Source of the DNA: Nitrospirota bacterium
GTDB lineage: Bacteria > Nitrospirota > Thermodesulfovibrionia > Thermodesulfovibrionales > SM23-35
Length of the DNA: 64,000 bases
Assembly (NCBI GenBank): GCA_040754395.1
Contig: JBFMCL010000012.1
Span: 1 to 64,000, forward strand
Reading direction: 5' to 3'
Shown piece after piece: positions 4,900-35,352 of the stretch. Position 1 is the stretch's first letter. The number at the start of each line of letters is the position of its first letter. The position numbers were made by a program, and so were the translations under genes. The notes beneath the pieces were generated by a model that was not told where the DNA came from, made no database searches, and saw nothing but the letters and a program-made list of their open reading frames with translations.

Positions 4900-5910
4900 A
4901 TGCAAAAGAGAAAAAGTGCCCGTCTTGCACTGACTGTAGACAATAGACTCAGAATTACTTCGTGGAACAGTGCATTTGAGCAAATATACAAAGGTCTTCT
5001 TTCCAATCCGAAAAGCCTGCACTATAGTATAGTGATGCCGGTTGTTTACAAATCCGGAGAAGACGCGGTAAAACTGGCTATCAAAAACGGGAAACCGCTC
5101 AGGCTCAATAATCATCAGCTTTTTTTCCTTTGTGACAAAGCCCGTGCAGATATCCAGATTTCGCCCCTGAAAGACAAAAACGGCAAAGTTTCCAGTGCAA
5201 GAATAACGGTCAGGCCCCGCCTCAGTTGTGAAACGTACCGGGACATTGAGCAGGACAGATTCACTGAGATAGGAAAGGTTGCAGCAACCCTTGCGCACGG
5301 CGTAAGAAATCCGTTAAACGCAATAAAAGGCGCTGTTATTTACTTGCGGGAAAAGTATTCCCGGGAAAAAAAGCTGACGGAGTTTACCCAAATTATTGAA
5401 GACGAGATATCACGGCTCGACCAGTTCATCGCGAATTTTCTCAGCACCTCCCTGGTCGATAAGGCTCTTCACAAAGCTGATCTGAACGCAATTCTGAAAA
5501 AAACCGCCATCATGATATCTCTTGCTGCACAATCTCACGGGATAGAGGCTGTGTTCGAATACGGGAACATTTCTCCGGTTATGATGAACCCTTTCTATTT
5601 TGAACATGCCATCCTGAATATCATCAACAATGCTCTGGAAGCCATGCCATCCGGTGGCAGGTTGCGGGTGAGATCCATTCCCGTAGTCCGTTCGAACTGT
5701 GAGTTTGCATTAATCGAGGTTTCTGATTCGGGCGGAGGGATGCCGGAAGGTATATCTGAGAAGGCCCCTGCAGCGTCAAAAAGCAAAGGAAAAGGACTGG
5801 GGCTCTTCATCACACGTGAGATACTCCGGTCAAGCGGTGGTCATCTTGAAATCAAGAGCCGGAAAGGGATTGGGACAACGGTACAGCTCTATCTCCCAGT
5901 AATGTCATGA
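4900..5910 (+). CDS. NtrB-like soluble sensor histidine kinase
   Basis: This 336-residue kinase has no transmembrane segment, so it should sense a cytosolic signal. Residues 1-105 form a PAS-like sensor (LTVDNRLRITSWNSAFEQI). The dimerisation/phosphoacceptor helix carries H133 in LAHGVRNPLNAIKG. The ATP-binding domain shows an N box (NIINNALEAM, N243/N244), a G1 box (DSGGGMPEG) and a G2 box (SKGKGLGLFI). It would autophosphorylate H133 and pass phosphate to the overlapping response regulator. Its stop codon overlaps that regulator's start (ATGATGG), indicating translational coupling. The arrangement resembles kinase/regulator pairs placed next to exopolysaccharide loci. Confidence 0.92.
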   Translation: MQKRKSARLALTVDNRLRITSWNSAFEQIYKGLLSNPKSLHYSIVMPVVYKSGEDAVKLAIKNGKPLRLNNHQLFFLCDKARADIQISPLKDKNGKVSSARITVRPRLSCETYRDIEQDRFTEIGKVAATLAHGVRNPLNAIKGAVIYLREKYSREKKLTEFTQIIEDEISRLDQFIANFLSTSLVDKALHKADLNAILKKTAIMISLAAQSHGIEAVFEYGNISPVMMNPFYFEHAILNIINNALEAMPSGGRLRVRSIPVVRSNCEFALIEVSDSGGGMPEGISEKAPAASKSKGKGLGLFITREILRSSGGHLEIKSRKGIGTTVQLYLPVMS

Positions 5911-7253
5911 TGGCCGCAAAAGGCAATATTCTTGTTGTTGACGATGAGCCGAATGCGAGAAAAGTGCTTTCTGCCATCCTTTCGGACGCCGGGTATCGGG
6001 TTATTGAATCCATGGATGCAGAAAAAGCAATGAAACGCATCTCAAGGGGCGATGTGGACCTGGTAATTACAGACGTAAAAATGCCCGGTATGAATGGCAT
6101 GCAACTATTCGATAACATTACTAAATACCATTCTGATATCCCGGTTATCTTTCTTACCGCATACGGAACAGTTGAATCCGCAGTTACCGCGATGACCGAG
6201 GGAGCGTCGTATTATTTCATTAAACCTCCGGACTACATAAAGCTCAAGCATACCATCAAGAAGGCATTGGATCAGCGACATTCTCAAAGGGAATTGATGT
6301 TCCAGAAAAAAACTCCGCAAGGGGAAAACCGCAGCGTTCAGATGATCGGTTCTACACCACAGATGAAAAAAATATTTACCACGATCGAAACCGTACGGGA
6401 TTCAGCAAGCAGCGTGCTCCTTTGTGGTGAAACAGGAACGGGAAAAGAACTTGTTGCACGTTTGCTTCATTGCACAAGCAGAAGGAAAGAAAAGCCTTTC
6501 GTCGCGGTCAACTGTGCCGCTATACCGCGGGACCTTATTGAATCAGAACTATTCGGCTTTGAAAAAGGCGCTTTTACCGGTGCCCTTTCATCGAGGACCG
6601 GAAAGATTGAAGAAGCTTCTGAAGGCACCCTTTTTCTTGATGAAATCGGAGACCTCGAACTGCCGCTTCAGGCAAAACTTTTGAGAGTTCTTCAGGAAAA
6701 CGAGATTGAGAGGCTCGGCAGCAACAGAAAAATCAGGGTCGAATTCCGTCTGATTTCTTCGACTAACCGCGATATTAAAAAGATGATTGCCGAAGGGGCA
6801 TTCAGAGAAGATCTTTTTTACAGGATTAATGTCATACAGATACATTTACCCCCGCTGAAGGAAAGGGCAGATGACATACCCCAGTTAGTAACGGAGTTTC
6901 TCGGTGAATTCTGCAGCCGGGAGAATAAATCGCTCACCATTACCGATGACGTAGTGAAGATATTGCAGAAATATCACTGGCCCGGCAATATCAGGCAACT
7001 GAAAAACACCATAGAAAGAGCAACAATCCTTGCAAAAGACCGCTCCATAACGATCAAAGAACTGCCTGAGGATATTGCTTCACAGAAAGACTCCTCCGGA
7101 ACAGATACAAAGAAAACCCTGAAGGATTTGGAAATGCAGGTCATCACAAGAACGCTGGCTGAATGTAATGGCAATAAATCTAGGGCCGCAAAGATGCTCG
7201 GCATTTCCAGGAAGACATTCTACAAAAGGCTGAGAGATAATTCCGTTAAATAA
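5907..7253 (+). CDS. NtrC-family sigma-54 response regulator
   Basis: This 448-residue protein has three standard parts. The receiver has acidic pocket DDE (12-14), phosphoacceptor D56 and K106. The AAA+ domain has Walker A GETGTGKE (174-181) and the sigma-54-contacting loop GAFTGA (221-226). A Fis-type helix-turn-helix is at the C-terminus (NGNKSRAAKMLGISRKTFYKRL). It would oligomerise when phosphorylated by the upstream kinase and open sigma-54 promoters. A good -24/-12 element lies about 220 bases downstream of its stop, before the NusG-like gene. Its start overlaps the kinase stop; either ATG of the ATGATG pair may be used. A paralogue lies at 16561-17904. Confidence 0.94.
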   Translation: MMAAKGNILVVDDEPNARKVLSAILSDAGYRVIESMDAEKAMKRISRGDVDLVITDVKMPGMNGMQLFDNITKYHSDIPVIFLTAYGTVESAVTAMTEGASYYFIKPPDYIKLKHTIKKALDQRHSQRELMFQKKTPQGENRSVQMIGSTPQMKKIFTTIETVRDSASSVLLCGETGTGKELVARLLHCTSRRKEKPFVAVNCAAIPRDLIESELFGFEKGAFTGALSSRTGKIEEASEGTLFLDEIGDLELPLQAKLLRVLQENEIERLGSNRKIRVEFRLISSTNRDIKKMIAEGAFREDLFYRINVIQIHLPPLKERADDIPQLVTEFLGEFCSRENKSLTITDDVVKILQKYHWPGNIRQLKNTIERATILAKDRSITIKELPEDIASQKDSSGTDTKKTLKDLEMQVITRTLAECNGNKSRAAKMLGISRKTFYKRLRDNSVK

Positions 7254-8540: not shown

Positions 8541-8575
8541 AATAATTTGTTCACACAAAAAAGGTGTATGAGAAT

Positions 8576-9622
8576 ATGGTCAGATTACTGAGAAATGAAA
8601 TGATACAAAGTCTGCTGGCGCTAACGGCATTTCTTCTCCTGCTGCTTCTTTCTTCCTGTGCGGGACGTGACATACGTCCCGAAGCACTGATCGCGCAGCA
8701 CACCTCTGAGACAAAAACTGAAAGACTGAATGCAGAGATACTCCAGAAAAGCACTGCGTTTCAAAAAATGTCCTCTGCAGCTGATTATATAATCGGTCCT
8801 GAAGATCTACTTGAAATAACCCTCTTTCAGGCAAAGGAACTGGATACTGTAGCGCGTGTCAGCGCTTCGGGTTTCATAAAATTACCCTTGATTGACAAGG
8901 TAGAAGCTTCTGGCCACACCACATCAGAACTTGAGCACATTATTGCCGGAAAATACAAGACGTACCTCTCAGAACCGGTGGTCGGGATATTCATTAAAGA
9001 GTACAGAAGCCAGCAGATTACCGTGCTCGGTTCTGTACAGAAGCCCGGGGTATACTATGTTTCTGGCCAGAGATCCCTTTTGGAGCTTCTTTCTTTGGCC
9101 GGAGGTCTCAGCGGAGATGCGGGTGACATCTGCATAGTCCAGAGAAGCACTCTACCGGATACAGGCGATCAGCAGACAACCAACAATATCGTTGTTGATC
9201 TGGACCAGCTATTGATAAAAGGGCAGATTGCATTCAATATTCCGATGCACGCCGGCGACGTAATTCTCGTTCCGAAGAGCGGTATTTTCTTTGTAGACGG
9301 TGCAGTCAGAAGTCCGGGATCTTTTCCACTGAAGGGGAAAATGACGTTCACACAGGCCATCAGTATTGCTAAGGGGTTGGATATGGATGCAACGAAGTCA
9401 GATATCAAGATATACCGTGATTCCGGAAAGCAGGAAAGAGATGTTATTATTATTGATTATGATGAAATCCTTGAAAGAAAAATCCCGGATGTTGAAATAA
9501 AAGACAAGGATGTTATTATCGTATCGAGCAGCAGTTTCAAAAGATTTCTGGGCGGGCTGGCAGGATATTTCAATTTCGGCTATTTCGGGTTCAGCGGTGT
9601 TCGTCCAGGTATTGGGTTTTAA
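8576..9622 (+). CDS. Wza-type polysaccharide export lipoprotein
   Basis: This is an outer-membrane polysaccharide export protein. The N-terminus is a lipoprotein signal: basic residues, a long Leu run and the lipobox LSSC. The mature part begins with the poly_export domain (DYIIGPEDLLEITLF), followed by SLBB-type segments (QQITVLGSVQKPGVYYV and GIFFVDGAVRSPGSFPL). E. coli Wza forms an octameric channel, and homologues work with a Wzc-type kinase, which is the next gene here. The C-terminus ends FGFSGVRPGIGF after a short hydrophobic stretch. ATG 8576 is chosen; GTG 8564 would add four residues but has no ribosome-binding site. Confidence 0.92.
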   Translation: MVRLLRNEMIQSLLALTAFLLLLLLSSCAGRDIRPEALIAQHTSETKTERLNAEILQKSTAFQKMSSAADYIIGPEDLLEITLFQAKELDTVARVSASGFIKLPLIDKVEASGHTTSELEHIIAGKYKTYLSEPVVGIFIKEYRSQQITVLGSVQKPGVYYVSGQRSLLELLSLAGGLSGDAGDICIVQRSTLPDTGDQQTTNNIVVDLDQLLIKGQIAFNIPMHAGDVILVPKSGIFFVDGAVRSPGSFPLKGKMTFTQAISIAKGLDMDATKSDIKIYRDSGKQERDVIIIDYDEILERKIPDVEIKDKDVIIVSSSSFKRFLGGLAGYFNFGYFGFSGVRPGIGF

Positions 9623-9643: not shown

Positions 9644-11977
9644 ATGGATAACAAATATGAACTGAAACAGTTTGAGCCCAAGGATAGCTCAATTTCCACG
9701 TACATAGAGTATCTCCAAAATAAAGACAAAGAGGAGTTTCATCTGAGGGACTATCTCAATATCATCCTTAAGCGGAAATCGATGGTACTCATTTTCCTGG
9801 TTTCCGTCATTGTCATCACCTTGATATTTTCCCTTCTGAAGATTCCTTTTTACCGGGCAACCGCCGTTCTGAAAATCGAGAGTGAGACCCCGAGAGTCCT
9901 TTCCTTTCAGGGAGTTCAGATCGATGCTCTTGGCGCCAACTATTATCAGACCCAGTATGAAATCCTGAAAAGCAGAAGCCTTGCTGGAAGAGTAATAGCT
10001 AACCTGGAACTGCAGAAGAATGAGAATTTCCTTCCCCCCGCAGACATCCCGACCAGACTGAAAAGGTTCATCTTTGACAATACTGTCGGACTGTTTGTAG
10101 ATTTTTACCGTTTTCTTACCGCACCAAAACCCGAAAAAGAGCCACAAGCAAACAGCAACACCTCAGAGGGACTATATGAAATACCAGATTACATGATAGA
10201 TTCTCTTATCTCACGTATTGTGGTAGCTCCCGTAAAAAACTCCCAGCTCGTTAAAGTGAGTTTCATATCACAGAATCCGGAACTTTCTATGGATGTGACA
10301 AATGCAGTTGCACAGACCTATATAACCTTCGATCTGGAGACCAGAATATATGCCAGCAAAGAAGCAAAAAATTTCCTGCAGTCGCAGATTGAAGTAATGA
10401 AACAGAAAGTGGAGGAATCAGAGCAGACACTTAACGCATATGCGGCAAAAAATGGAATAGTATTTAACAGCAACAATAACAACCTCTATTCACAAAAGCT
10501 GTCCGATATTTCTGCTGCCTTGAACAGCGTTACCACGGAGAGAATTCAGAAAGAGGCGTTATACCGCGAGGTAAAGGACTCCGGACCCAACAATCCAATC
10601 ATACTGAACAACCCTATGATACAGGGTTTGTGGAAACAGCATGCATCGCTTGAAGCAGAATATGATAATCTCTTGAAAATATACACTCCCGAGTACCCGA
10701 AGATGAAGAGTCTCAAAAATCAGATGGATTCTGTAGTTAACAGAATCTCTCAGGAAACCACAAAAATCATCCAATCAGCTGAGCTAGATTACAAGAATGC
10801 ACTGAAAAAGGAAGAAAATCTCACAAGGGCGCTGAATTCTCAAAAACAGCAGGTACTCTCCTTTCAGGGCTCTGCTGCGCAATATGAAGTACTCAAGAGG
10901 GATGTTGACGTGAACAAAGGCTTGTACAACAGCCTCCTTCAACGCCTGAATGAAGTAAGCGTCTCTGCAAGCAACAAAGCTACGAATATCCAGCTTCTTG
11001 ATAAGGCCATCTTGCCCAAATATCCGTTCCAGCCGAATATCCCTTTTAATATCATCCTCTCTATCATCTTCGGTCTCGCGGGCGGAGTCGGTCTCGCATT
11101 TCTGGCCGAGTATTTTGACAGCAGTATCAAAGACACAGATGATATTGAAAGAAAAGCCCGCCTTCCAATCCTCGGTGTTATTCCTGACGTCTATGACGTA
11201 AAGCATGTATCTGTTTCCTCACGGCCAAAAATTATTCATCTGGAGTCGAATCCACCAACTTCTCATACTCCTGTAGTTGTCAACAATAAAAAGGTCAGCC
11301 CGGTGTTGGAAGCGTTCCGTTCAATCGGCGCTTTTATCCTCTTGTCTTCTTCATCGAAGCCTCCGAAAACCATGCTTATTACTGGTCCCGATGCGAAAGT
11401 AGGCAAGACTTCGACCTGTATCAATATCGCCAATGCCTTGCTGGAATCACTCGGGAAAGGTATTATTATTGACGCCGACATGCGAAGGCCTATGCTGCAT
11501 AGTGCGTTCGGCCTCGATAACTCAGTCGGACTTTCCTCTTTTCTTGCTGGTCATGTAGATTTTGATTCTGCTGACAACGGTCTCATCAAGCCTTCGAGCA
11601 TGCGCGGGCTCAGCGTTCTGACTTCAGGTCCCGTGCCACCCAATCCGTCCGAACTTATAGGTTCCACACGCATGCAGGACCTCATTTATGCACTCCAGCC
11701 ATTCTTTGAATTTGTCCTTATCGACTCTCCTCCTGTTATGGGGTTGCCTGATGCGATTTATCTCAGCAAGATTGTTGACGGTACCGTGCTGGTGGTAAAA
11801 GCAAATGAAACCCCGATAAAGGTTCTGCAGGAAACCAAAAAGGTATTTACGGGAATCGATGCAAGGATCCTTGGTGTCGTGCTAAACGGAGTAAAGGAAA
11901 GCGACCTTAAATACGGCTCATATAACTACTATCATTCTGCATACTACTCGTCTTATTTTGGCGACAAGGAAAAGTAG
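9644..11977 (+). CDS. Wzc-type polysaccharide co-polymerase / tyrosine autokinase
   Basis: This 777-residue inner-membrane protein has a Wzz domain with one TM helix near residue 40 and a second near residue 470. A long periplasmic coiled-coil region lies between them, and a cytosolic bacterial tyrosine kinase domain follows. The kinase has Walker A GPDAKVGKTS (K588), Walker A' IIIDADMRRP and Walker B FVLIDSPPV. The last 21 residues hold seven tyrosines (757, 760, 762, 763, 767, 768, 771), the usual autophosphorylation cluster. Cycles of phosphorylation control chain length and export through the Wza-like partner encoded 21 bases upstream. Fusion of both modules in one chain is typical of Gram-negative bacteria. 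Confidence 0.94.
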   Translation: MDNKYELKQFEPKDSSISTYIEYLQNKDKEEFHLRDYLNIILKRKSMVLIFLVSVIVITLIFSLLKIPFYRATAVLKIESETPRVLSFQGVQIDALGANYYQTQYEILKSRSLAGRVIANLELQKNENFLPPADIPTRLKRFIFDNTVGLFVDFYRFLTAPKPEKEPQANSNTSEGLYEIPDYMIDSLISRIVVAPVKNSQLVKVSFISQNPELSMDVTNAVAQTYITFDLETRIYASKEAKNFLQSQIEVMKQKVEESEQTLNAYAAKNGIVFNSNNNNLYSQKLSDISAALNSVTTERIQKEALYREVKDSGPNNPIILNNPMIQGLWKQHASLEAEYDNLLKIYTPEYPKMKSLKNQMDSVVNRISQETTKIIQSAELDYKNALKKEENLTRALNSQKQQVLSFQGSAAQYEVLKRDVDVNKGLYNSLLQRLNEVSVSASNKATNIQLLDKAILPKYPFQPNIPFNIILSIIFGLAGGVGLAFLAEYFDSSIKDTDDIERKARLPILGVIPDVYDVKHVSVSSRPKIIHLESNPPTSHTPVVVNNKKVSPVLEAFRSIGAFILLSSSSKPPKTMLITGPDAKVGKTSTCINIANALLESLGKGIIIDADMRRPMLHSAFGLDNSVGLSSFLAGHVDFDSADNGLIKPSSMRGLSVLTSGPVPPNPSELIGSTRMQDLIYALQPFFEFVLIDSPPVMGLPDAIYLSKIVDGTVLVVKANETPIKVLQETKKVFTGIDARILGVVLNGVKESDLKYGSYNYYHSAYYSSYFGDKEK

Positions 11978-12025: not shown

Positions 12026-12652
12026 ATGCCCTTCAATGGAAACAGGAAGCATGTTTTTTTTTCTGCTGCCGGCCTTATAAGCAGATTCTATGAGGGTTGC
12101 CCCGTAAACGAAATTTACGATAAGGGCGTACGATATTATGATATCCTGCTCCATCTTCTCGAAAACCCGGACGCTGTCGAAAGCCTTTCAGGCCTTACGA
12201 AAATACCGCCTGAAAAAATCCGTTCTGCCGCATTGAAGATCATTCATCTGCTCATGTTCAATAGAAATCAGAATCCTTATCTCACCCTTGGGTTACCAGA
12301 TCAGGCAACAGCAGCCGATGTCAAGCACAGGTGGAAAAGACTCCTTTTATTGATCCACCCTGACAGGTCACCGTCCTTCAAGGGAAATGAGACAATGACC
12401 CGGAGAATAAATGAGGCATACAGGAACATTGCAAATCTGGGGCCAAATGACGTTCCGAGTTACAGCCATGAAGATCGGAACACCAATGAATCAGCGGCTT
12501 TCACTGCCAGTTATGCTGCAGGGGGGAATATGCATGTCCAATCGCTGCTATCCCGTCATTATAAGTATCTCCGGCATCTTCCGACAATAATTGTCATCAC
12601 CGCCGTCTCGCTGGCTTTCTTGAGCCTACTAATCTTTATCCTGCTGAAATAA
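12026..12652 (+). CDS. Membrane-anchored J-domain protein
   Basis: This 208-residue protein has an unassigned N-terminal helical region (1-80). A J domain follows (about 83-140, NPYLTLGL...) with the HPD tripeptide at 111-113, then a polar linker and a single C-terminal TM helix (188-207, tail anchor). J domains stimulate Hsp70 ATPase, so it would recruit DnaK to the inner membrane. Its position directly after the Wzc-like kinase suggests a role in assembling or controlling the export complex, which is inference. It lacks the Gly/Phe and zinc-finger regions of true DnaJ. No dedicated Hsp70 gene is in the window. Confidence 0.82.
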   Translation: MPFNGNRKHVFFSAAGLISRFYEGCPVNEIYDKGVRYYDILLHLLENPDAVESLSGLTKIPPEKIRSAALKIIHLLMFNRNQNPYLTLGLPDQATAADVKHRWKRLLLLIHPDRSPSFKGNETMTRRINEAYRNIANLGPNDVPSYSHEDRNTNESAAFTASYAAGGNMHVQSLLSRHYKYLRHLPTIIVITAVSLAFLSLLIFILLK

Positions 12653-12664
12653 TTCTCAGAACAT

Positions 12665-13816
12665 ATGGAAATCCCTTTTCACAAGCCGTACATTACTGAA
12701 GACGAAATATCAGGAGTTGTCAATGCACTGAGTTCAGGATGGATAACCATGGGACCAACCACGGTGAATTTCGAAAATACTTTCAGGGAATACATCGGTA
12801 CGAGGAATGCCGTATCAATGAACTCCTGCACCGCCTGTCTTCATCTGGCACTCAAAACAATCGGGCTCAAGGAAAATGATGAGGTTATACTACCCGCCAT
12901 GACTTTCACTGCAACAGCCGAAGTCATCACCTACTTCAGGGCAAAACCCGTACTGGTAGATATAGAAAAGGAAACGGGAAATATCGATTATAGAAATATC
13001 GAGGAACATATTAACGGGAAAACGAAGGCAATTATCCCCGTACATTATGCAGGGCAGCCCTGCGATATGGACGAAATTGCCGCGATAGCCAAAAAATATC
13101 GTCTTTCAGTCATTGAGGATGCTGCACATGCCGTCCCCGCCTGGTACAAAAATAAAAAAATAGGGACACTCTCCGATATGACGTGCTTCAGTTTCTACGC
13201 AACCAAACCGATCACCACAGGTGAGGGTGGCATGGTGACTACCGAAAATGATGAGTGGGCTGACAGGCTCAGAATGCTACGGTTGCATGGAATCTCTCGA
13301 GATGCTTGGAAAAGATATACAAAAGAAGGATCATGGTATTACGAGGTCATGGAGGCAGGATACAAGTATAACCTGACTGACCTCCAGGCAGCTCTCGGTC
13401 TGGCCCAGCTCAGAAAAGCCGACTGGATGTGGCAGAGACGGAAAAACATTGCCGCACTCTATTCAGAAGCTTTTACGCCATGTGATGAGCTCATCACTCC
13501 TTACGTAAAATCTGACAGGAAAAGCTCATGGCACCTGTATGTGATCAAGCTCAATCTTGAGAAACTCAGAATTGACAGGAATCAGTTCATTGAAGAGCTA
13601 AAGAAACGGGGGATACTGACATCTGTCCATTTTATTCCCCTTTACAGGCACCCGTATTACAGGAATGCCCATGGATATTCCCTGAATGGTTTTTCAATGT
13701 CTGAATGGTTTTATGAGAGGGTCATCTCGCTCCCGATCTATCCCGGCATGACAAATGAGGATGTACGATCAGTAACAGATGCTGTGGCAGATATCGCAAA
13801 AAATTTTAGCAATTGA
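12665..13816 (+). CDS. DegT/DnrJ/EryC1-family sugar aminotransferase
   Basis: This 383-residue PLP enzyme converts a 4-keto (or 3-keto) nucleotide sugar to an amino sugar. Visible signatures are the substrate-binding NSCTACLHLAL segment (residues 54-64), the HYAGQPCDM turn, the VIEDAAHA motif whose Asp contacts the PLP ring nitrogen, and the PLP lysine in YATKPITTGEGG. Its stop overlaps the TTG start of the next gene, an initiating sugar transferase. A 4,6-dehydratase follows that. The trio parallels PglE-PglC-PglF of bacillosamine-type pathways, so a UDP-4-amino-4,6-dideoxy-HexNAc product is a fair inference. The acetyltransferase of that pathway is not adjacent. Confidence 0.92.
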   Translation: MEIPFHKPYITEDEISGVVNALSSGWITMGPTTVNFENTFREYIGTRNAVSMNSCTACLHLALKTIGLKENDEVILPAMTFTATAEVITYFRAKPVLVDIEKETGNIDYRNIEEHINGKTKAIIPVHYAGQPCDMDEIAAIAKKYRLSVIEDAAHAVPAWYKNKKIGTLSDMTCFSFYATKPITTGEGGMVTTENDEWADRLRMLRLHGISRDAWKRYTKEGSWYYEVMEAGYKYNLTDLQAALGLAQLRKADWMWQRRKNIAALYSEAFTPCDELITPYVKSDRKSSWHLYVIKLNLEKLRIDRNQFIEELKKRGILTSVHFIPLYRHPYYRNAHGYSLNGFSMSEWFYERVISLPIYPGMTNEDVRSVTDAVADIAKNFSN

Positions 13817-14397
13817 AACGTCTGTTTGATTTTGTTTTTTCCTCTCTTGGCATTATTGTGTTACTGCCTTTATTTGCAGGTATTGCCCTTGCGATAAAAA
13901 TGGACAATGCAGGACCAGTCTTTTTCAGGCAGGAAAGAATCGGCAAAGATTTCAAGGCATTCAGAATTTACAAATTCCGTACCATGGCTCATAATTCCGG
14001 ACAAAATGGACCAAAGATCACGTCCTCACACGACAAGCGTATTACGAGAACAGGGAAATATCTGAGAAGGTACAAACTTGATGAATTGCCGCAGTTATTC
14101 AATGTCCTGAAGGGAGACATGAGTTTTGTAGGGCCAAGGCCTGAAGTTGAGGAATACGTGAATATCTATAAATCAGATTATTCGAGACTGCTCAGGATTC
14201 GTCCGGGGATTACTGATCCGGCGTCGATTCAATATTCCAATGAGGAAACTATCCTAGCATCCGCAGACAACTGGGAAGAGGCATACAAAAAAAAAATTCT
14301 TCCAGAAAAAATCAGGTTGTCTTTGCACTACGTTGATCACCATAACCTCTCAACGGATCTGAAGCTTATCTGTAAAACAATTCTGAAAATAACCTAG
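13813..14397 (+). CDS. Initiating sugar-phosphate transferase (PglC/WcaJ-type)
   Basis: This 194-residue protein transfers a sugar phosphate from a nucleotide sugar to undecaprenyl phosphate, starting each repeat unit. It has one N-terminal hydrophobic helix (FSSLGIIVLLPLFAGIALAI) and the catalytic region with RQERIGKD, YKFRTM, a DELPQLFNVLKGDMSFVGPRP block and a conserved C-terminal part. The compact size matches the monotopic PglC class, not the large WbaP/WcaJ class with extra TM helices. It begins with TTG, overlapping the aminotransferase stop, which suggests both gene coupling and a 4-amino-sugar substrate. It acts on the cytosolic face of the inner membrane. Confidence 0.92.
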   Translation: MKRLFDFVFSSLGIIVLLPLFAGIALAIKMDNAGPVFFRQERIGKDFKAFRIYKFRTMAHNSGQNGPKITSSHDKRITRTGKYLRRYKLDELPQLFNVLKGDMSFVGPRPEVEEYVNIYKSDYSRLLRIRPGITDPASIQYSNEETILASADNWEEAYKKKILPEKIRLSLHYVDHHNLSTDLKLICKTILKIT

Positions 14398-14429: not shown

Positions 14430-16514
14430 ATGGGTAAAACATTCACCAGAATATACAGGGACGTGAAAAAAGCGATCATACAGCATCGTCGTCTGTTTAT
14501 TGTTCTCGTGCTTCTTCTTCAGGCAATTGTTGCCAACTATTTGGCATTTATCATCCGTTTCGAGTCAAAGCTCTCTCCCTTTTATCTGAATCAGTTTCTC
14601 ACCTACCTCCCTTTGCTCGTATTCATACGTTTTGTCTTTATCATGCAGTCGGGTCTGCACAAAGGCTTATGGCGATACGCAAGTGTCAGCGATCTGATGA
14701 AAATCATTCATTCTACGACAATCGGAAGCATACTTTTTCTTCTCATTGTAAGATTTGTGATAGGCGAGGAAGATTATCCGCGATCAATCTTTTTCCTGGA
14801 CTGGATTATTTTCATTTCGATATCAGGCGGGAACAGACTGTTCATAAGGGTTTTCAGGGAATATATGACACACAACCCGTCGAAGAAAAAGATATTGTTT
14901 GTCGGAGCAGGTGATGCTGCAGAAATGCTTGTGCGGGAAATGATGTATAAACGCGATAGTTCATACAGTCCCATCGGATTTATCGACAACGATATACAAA
15001 AAAGAGGAAGCACCATCCATGGCATACCTATCCTCGGGACATACAGCATGCTCGACGAGATCATACAGCAACACAAACCTGATGAAGTACTTATCACTGA
15101 AGCCGATACCCAGAAGACTATCAGAGAAATATACGAAATATGCAAACCGCATAACATTACCATCAAGAAACTACCCGGCATAAACGACATCCTCGGCGGC
15201 AATATTTCCGTATCGACCAAAATAGGCCAGATACTCGTAAAGGCAAATCTGGTGACAGAGCAACAGGTGCAGGAAGCTCTTTCACTGCAGAAAAATGAGG
15301 GAGGCAGGCTTGGAGCGAAGCTTGTAAAGCTCGGCTACATCACCGAGGAGAAGCTGGTCTCCCTTCTCAATAAGCATTATGGCATCTCACATATCACGCC
15401 TATCTCACTTGAAGATCTGCTTCAGCGCGAACCTGTCGACACTAATATCACCTCATTAAGAGAGTTCATTCACGGCAAGCGTGTCCTGGTGACAGGAGCC
15501 GGCGGTTCAATCGGATCAGAACTTTCAAGGCAGATACTGAGATATTGTCCCTCTCATCTTATACTGATGGACAGGTATGAAAACAGTTTATTTGATATCG
15601 ACCTCGAACTCAGAACCAGGGAAAACGGATCAACTATTTCTACAATAATCGCAGATATACAGGATGTTATGAGCCTGGAACGTATCTTTGCTAAGAACAC
15701 GCCCCATATCGTATTTCATGCGGCAGCATACAAGCATGTCCCGCTTATGGAATACAATCCGATCGAAGCGGTCAAAAACAATATTTTCGGTACAAAGAAC
15801 CTCCTTGAATCTGCTGCAAAATACCGGGCAGAGAATTTTGTCCTCATATCCACTGATAAGGCTGTCAATCCGACGAATATCATGGGAGCAACCAAACGGG
15901 TCGCCGAGTTCCTTACAGTGAATATGGACGCCTTATCCGAAACGAAATTCACTACCGTGCGTTTTGGCAATGTGCTCGGTACCAATGGCAGCGTTGTCCC
16001 GATCTTCAAGGAACAACTCAAGAAGGGAGGGCCTCTCACCGTTACCCATCCAGATGCGGAGCGTTTCTTCATGCTCATTCCTGAGGCAGTACATCTTGTG
16101 CTTATGGCAGCTGCATCGGGAAAAGGGGGAGAAATATTCGTCCTGGATATGGGGGAGCGGGTCAGGATTATTGACATGGCCGAGAATTTCATTCGTCTGT
16201 CAGGATTCATTCCCTACAGGGAAATTCAGATTGACTTCATTGGTCTCAGACCGGGAGAAAAACTCCATGAAGAGCTCTTTGATATTTCAGAAAAAGCCAT
16301 AACAACATCCCATAAAAAGCTGTTGATGGCTGTCCCTGAAGTTCCTTCGATGGCATCACTGAAACAGCATATGATGAATTTAGAACGCTGCATACAGTGT
16401 TATTCTGTCAGCGATGCATTGCAGGTAATTCAACATATCGTGCCGAATTACATCAGACAGGATAACGCAGGTACTCCTGCCCCTCAATTTATGGGTGTGC
16501 ACACAGAAATATAG
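14430..16514 (+). CDS. Membrane NDP-sugar 4,6-dehydratase (PglF/WbpM/CapD-type) with inserted MshEN-like domain
   Basis: This 694-residue protein has four N-terminal TM helices, then a Rossmann-like region (ILFVGAGDAAEMLV). The catalytic SDR domain has GAGGSIG at 356-362 and the family motif with Met in place of Tyr (M485...K489). It would make UDP-4-keto-6-deoxy-HexNAc. Unusually, residues 264-319 between the two Rossmann parts hold two tandem motifs of the GspE/MshE N-terminal type: IGQILVKANLVTEQQ...Q and RLGAKLVKLGYITEEKL. In MshE this domain binds c-di-GMP. The second copy keeps R-L-G...G-I...L...L but has His instead of the last Gln; the first has Lys for Arg and Asn for Gly. Ligand binding is therefore possible, not certain. 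The gene belongs with the upstream aminotransferase and transferase. Confidence 0.9.
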   Translation: MGKTFTRIYRDVKKAIIQHRRLFIVLVLLLQAIVANYLAFIIRFESKLSPFYLNQFLTYLPLLVFIRFVFIMQSGLHKGLWRYASVSDLMKIIHSTTIGSILFLLIVRFVIGEEDYPRSIFFLDWIIFISISGGNRLFIRVFREYMTHNPSKKKILFVGAGDAAEMLVREMMYKRDSSYSPIGFIDNDIQKRGSTIHGIPILGTYSMLDEIIQQHKPDEVLITEADTQKTIREIYEICKPHNITIKKLPGINDILGGNISVSTKIGQILVKANLVTEQQVQEALSLQKNEGGRLGAKLVKLGYITEEKLVSLLNKHYGISHITPISLEDLLQREPVDTNITSLREFIHGKRVLVTGAGGSIGSELSRQILRYCPSHLILMDRYENSLFDIDLELRTRENGSTISTIIADIQDVMSLERIFAKNTPHIVFHAAAYKHVPLMEYNPIEAVKNNIFGTKNLLESAAKYRAENFVLISTDKAVNPTNIMGATKRVAEFLTVNMDALSETKFTTVRFGNVLGTNGSVVPIFKEQLKKGGPLTVTHPDAERFFMLIPEAVHLVLMAAASGKGGEIFVLDMGERVRIIDMAENFIRLSGFIPYREIQIDFIGLRPGEKLHEELFDISEKAITTSHKKLLMAVPEVPSMASLKQHMMNLERCIQCYSVSDALQVIQHIVPNYIRQDNAGTPAPQFMGVHTEI

Positions 16515-16560: not shown

Positions 16561-17904
16561 ATGAACAATAAAGGCAATATCCTGATAGTCGACGACGAAC
16601 CCAATGCGCTAAGGGTGCTTTCTGCCATTCTCTCCGAGGAAGGTTACAGGGTTTTTGATTCCATAAATGTCGAAAATGCCATTGACTTGCTGCATCATGA
16701 AGATCTGGATGCAGTGGTAACTGACCTCAGAATGAAGGATAGAGACGGCATTGACCTGTTCAAATACGTGAGCAATAATTTTGCTGACATCCCGGTAATT
16801 TTTCTTACAGCGTATGGAACCGTTGAGTCCGCTGTTTCCGCCATCGCTCAGGGAGCATTCTATTATTTTATCAAGCCACCCGATTACATGAAACTGAAAG
16901 GTATCATCGCAAGGGCAGTGGAACAGCGATTTCTCAAGAGAGAGATTCAAATACTCAGGAAAAAACTTGCATTCAGGGACAATCATCACCGGATCATCGG
17001 AAACAATCACGAGATATGCAGGATACTGGACACTATTGAATCAGTAAAAGATTCTCCAAGCAGCGTTCTCATTAAGGGAGAAACAGGTACCGGCAAAGAG
17101 ATGGTTGCCAAAGCTCTGCACTATCAGAGCTGCAAAAAACATATGCCCTTTATCACAATAAACTGTGCAGCCATCCCAAAGGAACTGCTTGAGTCCGAGC
17201 TTTTCGGTTACGAAAAGGGAGCCTTTACCGGTGCGGTTTCAAGAAGAATAGGAAAGCTTGAAGAGGCTTCTGGCGGCACCCTTTTCCTTGACGAAATAGG
17301 TGAACTTGAGCTTTCATTGCAGACGAAATTCCTGAGAGTGCTGCAGGAGCGAGAAATTGAAAGAATCGGGAGCAACAAAAAGATCAAGGTAGATTTCAAG
17401 CTCATATCATCAACAAATCGTGATTTCACGAAAGAAGTGCGAGAAGGAAGATTCAGGGAAGACCTGCTTTACCGGATTAACATTGTGGAGATTCAATTGC
17501 CACCGCTGCGGGAGAGAAAGGAAGACATACCTTTGTTTATCTCCGAATTTACCAAGGATTTCTGTGCCAGGGAGAATAAAAAAATCACGGTATCTGATCA
17601 GGCAATACAAGTTTTGCAGAACTATTCATGGCCTGGCAATGTCAGACAACTGAGGAATATCATCGAGATGCTAATAGTCCTTGCAAAAGGCAACAACATT
17701 ACAATAAGGGATTTGCCGGAGGAAATTTTCTCTGAAAATCCGCATAAAGCAGGAAACAATTATGTGAAAACCCTTCGGGAACTGGAGACACAGGCAATAC
17801 AGGATGCAATACGGGAATGCAACGGAAACAAGTCCAAAGCTGCGAAGATTCTCGGAATATCGAGAAAAGCGTTCTACAAGCGTCTCAAAGATATCACCGT
17901 TTAG
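16561..17904 (+). CDS. Second NtrC-family sigma-54 response regulator (orphan)
   Basis: This 447-residue paralogue of the regulator at 5907-7253 has the same three-part design and strong similarity throughout. The receiver phosphoacceptor is D55, Walker A GETGTGKE lies near 173-180, GAFTGA is at 220-225, and the Fis helix-turn-helix contains NGNKSKAAKILGISRKAFYKRL. The DNA-recognition helices of the two proteins are almost the same, so they may bind the same sites. No kinase gene is adjacent; the kinase at 4900 could serve both. It ends the first export block and is followed by a terminator. Feedback on the sigma-54 promoter at 7470 is a likely role. Confidence 0.92.
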   Translation: MNNKGNILIVDDEPNALRVLSAILSEEGYRVFDSINVENAIDLLHHEDLDAVVTDLRMKDRDGIDLFKYVSNNFADIPVIFLTAYGTVESAVSAIAQGAFYYFIKPPDYMKLKGIIARAVEQRFLKREIQILRKKLAFRDNHHRIIGNNHEICRILDTIESVKDSPSSVLIKGETGTGKEMVAKALHYQSCKKHMPFITINCAAIPKELLESELFGYEKGAFTGAVSRRIGKLEEASGGTLFLDEIGELELSLQTKFLRVLQEREIERIGSNKKIKVDFKLISSTNRDFTKEVREGRFREDLLYRINIVEIQLPPLRERKEDIPLFISEFTKDFCARENKKITVSDQAIQVLQNYSWPGNVRQLRNIIEMLIVLAKGNNITIRDLPEEIFSENPHKAGNNYVKTLRELETQAIQDAIRECNGNKSKAAKILGISRKAFYKRLKDITV

Positions 17905-32004: not shown

Positions 32005-35000
32005 ATGAGGAAGAGAAGAAAAACACTCTATTATCTGGTGTATTGCATGCTGCTGATGAATATTATCGCTGCAGGCACTGCATCAGCCGTGGCAGTATGT
32101 CCTTCTGAGATGCTTCACTACTGGAAGCTCGATGAAGGCAGTGCACCATATGACGACTTTTACGGCACCAACAATGCGACCTGTACTGTCTGTCCTTCTC
32201 CCGTAGCAGGGAGAGTCAACGGCGCCCAGCAGTTCACCGCGACAACCAATGTGTCTGCAGTTGATGACGGCACCTTTGACTGGGACAACTCCCAGAGCTT
32301 TTCCGTGGAAGTATGGATGAAGACTGCCAGCTGCTCGGGAACCGACGTGCTGGTCGGCAGGGATGACAGCGCCACCCCGGTTCACTGGTGGGTGGGATGC
32401 ACCAACGGTATCGCAGAGGCATATCTCATCGATTCCAACAACAACGGCTACGGCGTGGGGGGGACTACCCTCCTTACCGACAACAGCTGGCATCATCTCG
32501 TCTTTGTCAGGAATGCGGCTGCAAACACCATATCTCTTTATGTAGACGGGCAGCTCGAGGATTCGGTCAGCACCGCCTATACCGGAACCTTTAATTCCAC
32601 CGCCGCTCTCAATTTCGGCTGGCTGAATCTTTCCACAGGATACCATTTCTCAGGCGCTCTCGACGAAATTGCGCTCTACAACAGAGCCCTCCCCCTTGCA
32701 GAAATCAGTCAGCATTACAAAGATGGTTCCATCGGGTTACGATGGGGCTATTGTGCCTGCTCCTCTCCGGTCAGAATAATGCAACTTGGCGACTCGATCA
32801 CCTTTGGAGAACCACCGTATGACCCCATACTGGTCAAAGGGTTCAGGCAACCACTGTACCAGTCATTGACAGATGCCGGATATTCATTCGATTTTGTCGG
32901 AAGCATGCAAGATGGAGACATCAGCCTTTTTGACATCGACCACGAGGGACACGGCGGCTGGGCTGCAAAAAGAGAAAGGCCGCCTTACGGAGGCGGCATC
33001 GCACCCTATGTTCAGGGCATCCTCACTACAAATCCTGCTGATGTCGTGCTGCTTCATATCGGGACGAATGATGTGTCTGACGGGCTCGAAAATGCGAATG
33101 ATGTTGCCGAGATACTCGACAATATCGATATTTTGAGCAATGATATAGTGGTAGTCCTTTCAAAAATCATCCGCCGCACAGACGACAAGGCCGTTAAAAC
33201 AACACTCTTTAACAATGCTGTGGGAGCAATGGCGACGACCAGGATTGCCAGCGGCGACAGAATTGTCGTTGTGGATCACGAGAATGCGCTGAATTATTCC
33301 ACTGACATGGCAAGTGTTCTTCATCCCAATCAGACCGGATACAACAAGATGGCCAATGTCTGGTTTAATGCCCTCAGGGCATTTCTCCCTGTCTGTGCAG
33401 AACCTGCTATGCCGCCGTGTCCTTCTGAGATGCTTCACTACTGGAAGCTCGATGAAGGCAGTGCACCATATGACGACTTTTACGGCACCAACAATGCGAC
33501 CTGTACTGTCTGTCCTTCTCCCGTAGCAGGGAGAGTCAACGGCGCCCAGCAGTTCACCGCGACAACCAATGTGTCTGCAGTTGATGACGGCACCTTTGAC
33601 TGGGACAACTCCCAGAGCTTTTCCGTGGAAGTATGGATGAAGACTGCCAGCTGCTCGGGAACCGACGTGCTGGTCGGCAGGGATGACAGCGCCACCCCGG
33701 TTCACTGGTGGGTGGGATGCACCAACGGTATCGCAGAGGCATATCTCATCGATTCCAACAACAACGGCTACGGCGTGGGGGGGACTACCCTCCTTACCGA
33801 CAACAGCTGGCATCATCTCGTCTTTGTCAGGAATGCGGCTGCAAACACCATATCTCTTTATGTAGACGGGCAGCTCGAGGATTCGGTCAGCACCGCCTAT
33901 ACCGGAACCTTTAATTCCACCGCCGCTCTCAATTTCGGCTGGCTGAATCTTTCCACAGGATACCATTTCTCAGGCGCTCTCGACGAAATTGCGCTCTACA
34001 ACAGAGCCCTCCCCCTTGCAGAAATCAGTCAGCATTACAGTAACGGACTGAACGGCTTTGGCTATTGCACGCCAACCTTCACCGTCACCGGTTCCGCACC
34101 CGGCGGACATGGCACTATCTCCTGCGTGCCTTCTACTGTCAACTCGGGCGCTTCCTCCACCTGCACCATGACCCCCGATGCAAACTATCACCTCTCGGCG
34201 CTCACTGACAACGGGACTAATGTCCTCGGTTCGGTCGTCAATAACCAGTACACCATCTTCAACATCACCGCAAACCATACCGTCGTTGCCACCTTCGCCA
34301 TTAACACCTACACCCTTACCGTAGCAAAATCAGGTAAAGGGAACGGTACGGTAACCAGCATTCCTTCAGGAATCAACTGCGGTGGTGATTGTTCTGAAGC
34401 ATTTAATACCGGGACTTCCGTTACCCTTATTGCCACAGCATCCTCTGATTCAAACTTCACCGGATGGAACGGCGGGGGCTGTACGGGCACGGGAAACTGC
34501 ACGGTGATCATGAATAGTGCAGTTACTGTTACCGCCTCGTTTGATGGCAAGTATTTCATATCGGGAACTGTCCGGACGCCGAGCGGCTCAACTCCGGGAA
34601 GTCCTATCCGCGGCGTAACAATCACCCTTGGGGGAGATGCCGGCGGCACTGCCATAACCGATAAAAACGGGTATTATCAGTTCGCGGGATTGCCGAACGG
34701 TAATTACACACTCACCCCCAGTATGCTCAATTATTCATTTACCCCCGCGACCAGAGCTGTCGCATTATCCGAGAGGAATATGTACTCGCAGAATTTCACG
34801 GGAACATATTCTGTGAGTGGCACCCATTCACTGTCCGGCAAAATTCTCACGGCCCAGGGCAGTCCATTATCCGGGGTAACCGTAGCGCTGAACGGAAGCG
34901 CAACAGGCACCACACAGACAGACATCCTCGGCAATTACACATTTTCAGGACTGTCGAACGGGAACTATACCGTCACGCCCGGGATGGCCGGCTATACTTT

Positions 35001-35352
35001 TGCGCCTGAATTCAGAACAGTCACCATCAGCGGGTTCAGTATGTCGGGAATGAACTTTACCGGAACCTTGACAGGCGGAGGGATATACTCAATATCAGGC
35101 ACTGTGCGTTTGCCAAGCGGCGCGTTTCCGGGCAAACCAGTACCGGGCGTCGTGGTATCATTAACAGGAGATTCTACCGGGACCACCACCACGGATAATT
35201 ACGGAAATTATACCTTCAGGTCGCTGCCGAATGGTAATTTCACTATCGCTCCGTCAAAAACAGGGTATACATTTACCCCGACTGAAAGAAATGTCACGAT
35301 AGACAAAAGAAACCTGTATATGCAGGACTTTACTGCGGTGCTGGAACAATAA
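32005..35352 (+). CDS. Secreted LamG-SGNH-LamG protein with beta-repeat C-terminus
   Basis: This 1115-residue exported protein has a signal peptide (residues 1-28). It continues with a LamG-like domain (32-238), an SGNH hydrolase domain (about 257-455), a second LamG-like domain (472-678), two Cys-containing beta-repeat units and three carboxypeptidase-regulatory-like repeats (TDNYGNYTF types). SGNH blocks are visible: GDSITFG with S264, HGG, GTND (353-356) and LHPN with H440. The Asp expected three residues before that His is Ser437; the nearest Asp is D434. The two LamG copies are identical at DNA level. SGNH enzymes often remove acetyl groups from glycans, and LamG domains bind them, so it may edit the exported polysaccharide. 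A strong AGGAGGGG precedes the ATG. Confidence 0.9.
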   Translation: MRKRRKTLYYLVYCMLLMNIIAAGTASAVAVCPSEMLHYWKLDEGSAPYDDFYGTNNATCTVCPSPVAGRVNGAQQFTATTNVSAVDDGTFDWDNSQSFSVEVWMKTASCSGTDVLVGRDDSATPVHWWVGCTNGIAEAYLIDSNNNGYGVGGTTLLTDNSWHHLVFVRNAAANTISLYVDGQLEDSVSTAYTGTFNSTAALNFGWLNLSTGYHFSGALDEIALYNRALPLAEISQHYKDGSIGLRWGYCACSSPVRIMQLGDSITFGEPPYDPILVKGFRQPLYQSLTDAGYSFDFVGSMQDGDISLFDIDHEGHGGWAAKRERPPYGGGIAPYVQGILTTNPADVVLLHIGTNDVSDGLENANDVAEILDNIDILSNDIVVVLSKIIRRTDDKAVKTTLFNNAVGAMATTRIASGDRIVVVDHENALNYSTDMASVLHPNQTGYNKMANVWFNALRAFLPVCAEPAMPPCPSEMLHYWKLDEGSAPYDDFYGTNNATCTVCPSPVAGRVNGAQQFTATTNVSAVDDGTFDWDNSQSFSVEVWMKTASCSGTDVLVGRDDSATPVHWWVGCTNGIAEAYLIDSNNNGYGVGGTTLLTDNSWHHLVFVRNAAANTISLYVDGQLEDSVSTAYTGTFNSTAALNFGWLNLSTGYHFSGALDEIALYNRALPLAEISQHYSNGLNGFGYCTPTFTVTGSAPGGHGTISCVPSTVNSGASSTCTMTPDANYHLSALTDNGTNVLGSVVNNQYTIFNITANHTVVATFAINTYTLTVAKSGKGNGTVTSIPSGINCGGDCSEAFNTGTSVTLIATASSDSNFTGWNGGGCTGTGNCTVIMNSAVTVTASFDGKYFISGTVRTPSGSTPGSPIRGVTITLGGDAGGTAITDKNGYYQFAGLPNGNYTLTPSMLNYSFTPATRAVALSERNMYSQNFTGTYSVSGTHSLSGKILTAQGSPLSGVTVALNGSATGTTQTDILGNYTFSGLSNGNYTVTPGMAGYTFAPEFRTVTISGFSMSGMNFTGTLTGGGIYSISGTVRLPSGAFPGKPVPGVVVSLTGDSTGTTTTDNYGNYTFRSLPNGNFTIAPSKTGYTFTPTERNVTIDKRNLYMQDFTAVLEQ
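32098..32719 (+). repeat. Perfect 622-bp direct repeat, copy 1
   Basis: It is identical base for base to 33418-34039 and begins on the same codon position. It encodes the first LamG-like domain. The copies are offset by 1320 bases (440 codons), so recombination between them would delete one LamG copy plus the SGNH domain without shifting the frame. Confidence 0.97.
33418..34039 (+). repeat. Perfect 622-bp direct repeat, copy 2
   Basis: This is the second identical copy, encoding the second LamG-like domain. Sequence identity stops abruptly on both sides. This indicates recent duplication or ongoing gene conversion, unless it is an assembly error. Confidence 0.97.

Follow-up and report, generated by a model that had tools for sequence, protein, structure and literature searches.

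An exopolysaccharide locus of a Nitrospirota bacterium, contained in the 64,000-nt stretch of DNA analysed here (the window), carries a sugar-nucleotide dehydratase gene with a stretch resembling the N-terminal domain of pilus-motor ATPases in its middle, which raises the question of what this stretch is, where it came from and whether it could place the first committed step of a glycan under the direct control of c-di-GMP, as the first-pass annotation had proposed. Judged by its sequence, the 694-aa product is a membrane-anchored dehydratase of the PglF/WbpM/CapD type with UDP-GlcNAc as the predicted substrate (Table 1). It is matched by the Pfam models PF02719 (377.8 bits) and PF13727 (48.7 bits), and the catalytic half of its full-length AF2 model aligned in Foldseek with PglF (5bjw) at 45% identity and a TM of 0.93 of the target. 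The AF2 model places the four anchor helices at residues 20-44, 50-74, 86-111, and 118-146, and WbpM is likewise membrane-anchored (PMC8987622). The motif TDKxnMx3K, a mark of the PglF/WbpM class of UDP-GlcNAc 4,6-dehydratases (PMC8987622), is intact, with T475, D476, K477, M485, and K489 invariant among 38 aligned sequences.

Table 1. Coordinates in the window of the dehydratase gene, its parts and its neighbours.
Feature	Position	Strand	Basis
EpsE-like polysaccharide export protein	8564..9622	+	–
Chain-length/tyrosine autokinase (Wzc-like), same exopolysaccharide locus	9644..11977	+	–
DegT/PseC-like aminotransferase, probable next step	12665..13816	+	PF01041 441 bits; conserved neighbour
Small phosphoglycosyltransferase (Bac_transf)	13813..14397	+	PF02397 209.7 bits
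PglF/WbpM/CapD-type UDP-GlcNAc 4,6-dehydratase (predicted substrate) with inserted MshEN_N domain, 694 aa	14430..16514	+	ORF, Pfam, Foldseek
Four long helices at the N-terminus forming the membrane anchor, residues 20-146	14487..14867	+	AF2 model
PF13727 (CoA_binding_3), last membrane helices and N-terminal Rossmann part, residues 81-246	14670..15167	+	Pfam
Inserted MshEN_N domain, 58 aa, residues 263-320	15216..15389	+	NF053729, comparison with insert-free relatives, AF2 of isolated domain
24-residue c-di-GMP motif I, KIGQILVKANLVTEQQVQEALSLQ, residues 264-287	15219..15290	+	motif inspection, alignment
24-residue c-di-GMP motif II, RLGAKLVKLGYITEEKLVSLLNKH, residues 293-316, His316 replacing the last Gln	15306..15377	+	motif inspection, alignment
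Ordinary CapD linker SLEDLLQREPV, common to insert-free relatives	15405..15437	+	comparison with relatives
Catalytic SDR domain (Polysacc_synt_2), residues 352-634	15483..16331	+	Pfam (PF02719)
Catalytic TDKxnMx3K motif, residues 475-489	15852..15896	+	alignment; motif per PMC8987622
Sigma-54 response regulator, conserved downstream neighbour	16561..17904	+	neighbourhood comparison, domain match

The insert lies between the two Rossmann parts of the enzyme, i.e., between the PF13727 and PF02719 matches, where, as had been noted, CapD and WbpM normally possess a short linker. Insert-free relatives read SVSQIKPLSLEDLLQREPV at this site (an example is DILDGNVSVSQIKPLSLEDLLQREPV), while the window protein runs from DILGGNISVS through 58 further residues to HITPISLEDLLQREPV; because both flanks are conserved, the edges of the insert are fixed to about one codon (15216-15389). 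The end of 15428 given by the first-pass annotation is therefore too far downstream and falls within the CapD linker. The NCBIfam model NF053729 (c-di-GMP_motif, MshE-related) matches residues 264-315 over positions 1-52 of its 53 with 62.9 bits (E 1.7e-17; cut-off 38 bits), and the two motifs are separated by a spacer of five residues, as in MshEN, which bears out the two tandem GspE/MshE-type copies described at first reading. NF053729 also matched all 29 orthologous inserts tested, and a phmmer search against the PDB returned the N-terminal domains of PilF, PilB, and MshE. Shuffled copies of the protein gave an expectation of 0.0026 single relaxed motifs per protein, under a pattern widened to take in the N and H of the window copy, against the two correctly spaced copies observed.

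PF05157, which had been put forward as the profile for recognizing the domain, gave no match in the Pfam search of the window protein. This negative result does not refute the domain: PF05157 matches in the same genome begin where NF053729 matches end (e.g., C26:16496-16654, followed by 16655-16918), so that PF05157 models MshEN_C and not MshEN_N, and MshEN_C is absent in the window protein, in which the catalytic linker comes directly after the insert. PF05157 was thus rejected as unsuitable for testing the domain, and cases such as MshEN_N without MshEN_C escape annotation by this model. The missing half is not needed for binding in MshE, whose residues 1-62 (isolated MshEN_N) suffice to bind c-di-GMP at 0.35 uM (PMC5013675).

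The AF2 model of the whole protein has a mean pLDDT of 80.8 and a pTM of 0.60, its confidence drops near residues 319-324, and its domain arrangement is therefore unreliable; moreover, the best 50 Foldseek matches listed for it concern the catalytic domain alone, so the insert was modelled separately. On its own, the insert was predicted as a four-helix bundle like that of MshE residues 1-62, with pLDDT 83-88 in the core. The first 18 Foldseek matches of this isolated model are all MshE, PilF, or PilB, the best being c-di-GMP-bound MshE (5htl_B; rmsd 0.8 A over 53 aligned columns, probability 1.00), for which the E-value is just 0.009 because the domain is so short. VIA-align gave a Z of 10.0 against 5htl_B, compared with about 6 for fumarase helices, so the modelled fold match exceeds background, though helical bundles score easily. 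Structure prediction thus yielded the expected MshEN-like fold and, together with the profile match and the comparison with relatives, leaves the domain identity, the host enzyme and the insertion place all well supported.

The conservation of the insert was analyzed in 31 aligned orthologues, in which ligand-related positions have a mean entropy of 0.67 bits compared with 1.49 bits in the rest of the insert (p 0.0005), a contrast that partly reflects fold constraint, as the Gly and Leu positions also stabilize the bundle. The binding glycines Gly266 and Gly295 are invariant, position 264 is Lys or Arg in all 31, and the Gln of motif I is retained in 30/31 and that of motif II in 22/31, such that the R/K, L, G, and Q ligand set is mostly kept across the family. 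The window copy itself carries Ile265 for Leu and fails the published relaxed motif, owing to His316 for the ligand Gln and Asn273 for the turn Gly. The Lys-for-Arg, Asn-for-Gly, and His-for-Gln substitutions had been read correctly in the first-pass annotation, while taking the Lys that opens motif I as a defect is unfounded, since PilF GSPII-B binds c-di-GMP with a Kd of 6 nM and a change of its Lys167 to Arg weakens binding 25-fold (PMC11731258).

His316 is a real doubt for the window copy and may weaken its binding, and the family could accordingly bind c-di-GMP with the window copy weakened or dead through His316 and Asn273, to which we attach only a small probability. His occupies this position in just 4/31 orthologues, and the non-binding GSPII-A required several changes, terminal Gln positions included, before it bound (positions 33, 39, and 62 changed jointly gave measurable binding; PMC12002112). 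Against this, PilF GSPII-B with Q218E, at the place equivalent to His316, still binds at 460 nM (PMC11731258), Asn is the commonest residue at turn position 273 (17/31), and the close relatives that share His316 retain the rest of the motif. In our judgement, c-di-GMP binding is highly probable for the insert family and probable, somewhat less so, for the window copy.

Another use of this fold is also documented. The N-terminal domain of PilB docks PilZ in Xanthomonas, and the insert shares its fold with the domain in the solved PilB/PilZ complexes, so that it could be a protein-docking or oligomerization module and not a nucleotide sensor, a reading to which His316 and Asn273 in the window copy lend something. 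We consider it improbable, as the polar ligand positions are kept across the family more than the fold needs.

The 31 orthologues show mean pairwise identities of 0.55 in the insert, 0.52 in the PF13727 part, and 0.70 in the catalytic part, and the corresponding dN/dS values, pooled over eight pairs with unsaturated synonymous sites, are 0.17, 0.17, and 0.11. The insert is therefore under purifying selection, at the same dN/dS as the N-terminal Rossmann part. Interdomain linkers are generally known to accept insertions, and a tolerant linker might harbor a sequence that resembles the domain by chance or is carried along neutrally; no tool result favors this, and the significant profile and fold matches, the retention over two phyla and the dN/dS of 0.17 make it scarcely credible.

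A survey of CapD homologues, proposed with the original observation, revealed the insert as a conserved trait of 31 distinct dehydratases from several Nitrospirota families and three anammox planctomycetes, with mostly uncultured carriers. Within the order of the host, the full arrangement is present in 19/149 genomes (own genome included) of four families, and a phylum sample of 396 genomes gave 21 full-arrangement matches, with a further family of the class among them. A pattern scan of 84,980 species, one genome each, detected the full arrangement at 26 loci of Nitrospirota and three of anammox Planctomycetota; it relied on two peptides from the insert family, so that fusions in other phyla could escape it. 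The arrangement occurs in 3/62 genomes of the order of the Scalindua genome, and a strong match was found in one genome only of a 246-genome planctomycete sample; this rarity suggests that the anammox planctomycetes acquired the insert-bearing dehydratase by horizontal transfer. Five genomes (G003, G048, G038, G077, and G093) possess the insert-bearing enzyme alongside a close relative that lacks the insert.

A first tree of the catalytic part united the 31 insert-bearing proteins in one clade (100/95) apart from 30 insert-free ones. A wider tree with closer insert-free proteins added required two changes, since two f9 proteins (L161 and L167) grouped with L040 with weak support, and the single-clade topology was not rejected (p-AU 0.24). 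Exactly one gain without loss, with which the first tree agreed, was dropped in view of the two changes in the wider tree; the phylogeny fits a single gain of the insert with no more than one loss. By sequence, the insert is most closely related to PilB-type ATPases of the host's order, from which it was most likely copied.

The dehydratase gene belongs to a conserved exopolysaccharide operon, with chain-length and export genes further upstream. Among insert-bearing loci, the gene order aminotransferase, phosphoglycosyltransferase, dehydratase, and sigma-54 regulator is recurrent, and in others the dehydratase gene comes directly after a Wzc-like gene. According to the dehydratase class and to the neighbouring aminotransferase and phosphoglycosyltransferase, the product is likely a UDP-4-amino-4,6-dideoxy sugar that starts an exopolysaccharide. 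Six proteins of one Nitrospirota family (L043, L044, and L046-L049; 909-939 aa) carry the phosphoglycosyltransferase as an in-frame N-terminal extension of the insert-bearing dehydratase, which puts sugar synthesis and lipid loading on a single chain. Two related sigma-54 response regulators stand on either side of the operon in the window (5907-7253 and 16561-17904), and in many loci such a regulator lies next downstream of the insert-bearing gene. As well, a gene at 12026-12652 within the exopolysaccharide operon encodes a protein with a DnaJ domain and a hydrophobic helix at its C-terminus, and similar genes occur near the dehydratase in L070, L073, L074, and L076. Elsewhere in the window (32005-35352), a 1115-aa protein possesses two near-identical Laminin_G_3 blocks flanking a GDSL-like stretch, which suggests a recent internal duplication.

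The genome as a whole encodes 24 GGDEF, 8 EAL, 38 PilZ, and 23 NF053729 matches, and an Rfam scan of the 64,000-nt window for c-di-GMP riboswitches or other RNAs gave nothing at the gathering threshold. Two tandem PilB-type ATPase genes (L011 and L012, G000:C26:16496-18808) encode equal-scoring MshEN domains (each 71.5 bits with NF053729 and 85.7 bits with PF05157). At least three successive MshEN-like motifs, spaced by about 28-30 residues, are present in L026 (G000:C3, 130 aa), L024 (G000:C14, 137 aa), L013 (345 aa), and L016 (377 aa), some of which have no other recognizable domain, and these proteins are possible multi-motif c-di-GMP binders or solenoids. Moreover, L018 (G000:C2), L021 (G000:C4), and L019 (G000:C17) join MshEN-like motifs to PilZ, DUF4388-like, or J-domain/TPR-like parts (assigned by eye, PilZ excepted) and thus represent further MshEN fusions.

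With moderate confidence we favor the following account. In a lineage ancestral to part of the Nitrospirota, the dehydratase would have gained the MshEN_N half of a PilB-type ATPase in its hinge, where the membrane/Rossmann half meets the catalytic half. The four-helix bundle would bind c-di-GMP and shift the relative seating of the two halves, which would place the dehydratase under direct c-di-GMP control. c-di-GMP is in general use as a promoter of matrix. For this reason, and because the function of the glycosyltransferase NfrB requires its MshEN domain (PMC8669469), c-di-GMP would by analogy most likely turn the enzyme on, with UDP-4-keto-6-deoxy-GlcNAc formed mainly at high c-di-GMP. The neighbouring aminotransferase would convert this product to an amino sugar, which the phosphoglycosyltransferase would load onto the lipid carrier to begin the exopolysaccharide.

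The main rival to activation is recruitment, whereby the insert binds c-di-GMP without changing catalysis and, at high c-di-GMP, gathers the dehydratase with the phosphoglycosyltransferase and further members of an assembly complex, or determines where it sits or how it oligomerizes. The operon shared with the phosphoglycosyltransferase and the fusion of the two in one family speak for it, as does the activity of the WbpM C-terminal region without the membrane region (PMC8987622), which makes the linker dispensable for catalysis. We hold recruitment to be rather unlikely, as the hinge location favors conformational control and the insert has no known partner.

Activation of the dehydratase by c-di-GMP, if true, would mean that the messenger acts at the entrance of the pathway, on the making of sugar precursors, and not at the polymer or secretion step; to our knowledge, the cases of direct c-di-GMP control over exopolysaccharides described so far concern the polymerizing or secreting machinery. 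It would also mean that a 58-residue c-di-GMP sensor is movable as a plug-in to the hinge of an unrelated enzyme. We lean slightly towards the broader view that c-di-GMP gates nucleotide-sugar supply, with a sensor captured from a pilus motor making the first committed glycan step allosteric, in a family retained across Nitrospirota and transferred to anammox bacteria, and with unregulated insert-free paralogues alongside in some genomes. The idea lends itself to direct testing, given the small size of the domain, the established assays for the enzyme class and the existence of insert-free paralogues.

MshE of Vibrio cholerae (PDB 5htl) shares with the insert the two 24-residue motifs, the five-residue spacer, the four-helix bundle, and most ligand positions, whereas its domain forms the N-terminus of an ATPase and the insert, which has Lys264, Asn273, and His316, lies without MshEN_C inside a sugar-nucleotide enzyme. 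The PilB-type ATPases of the host's Nitrospirota order, the likely source, are up to 73% identical over the 60-residue domain and differ in that the host protein is an ATPase carrying MshEN_C and motor domains as well. PglF (Campylobacter), WbpM (Pseudomonas), and CapD (Staphylococcus) belong to the same UDP-GlcNAc 4,6-dehydratase class with TDKxnMx3K, and both WbpM and CapD are membrane-anchored like the window protein; the insert-free relatives compared here have no such insert. Control of the dehydratase step by other means has a precedent in S. aureus CapD, which is inhibited by cell-wall precursors (PMC6441080). The EpsG tyrosine kinase (TIGR03029), also found in exopolysaccharide loci, has an N-terminal stretch matching the insert (E 7.8e-07), here as a terminal domain of a kinase. 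We found no published report in the open-access literature of an MshEN domain inside a nucleotide-sugar enzyme, a CapD/PglF/WbpM fusion included. The c-di-GMP-activated NfrB of Escherichia coli likewise ties MshEN to an exopolysaccharide enzyme, but it is a family 2 glycosyltransferase with a C-terminal MshEN, in contrast to precursor synthesis with an internal insert; MshEN in an exopolysaccharide enzyme is thus already known, and in a nucleotide-sugar dehydratase it is apparently new.
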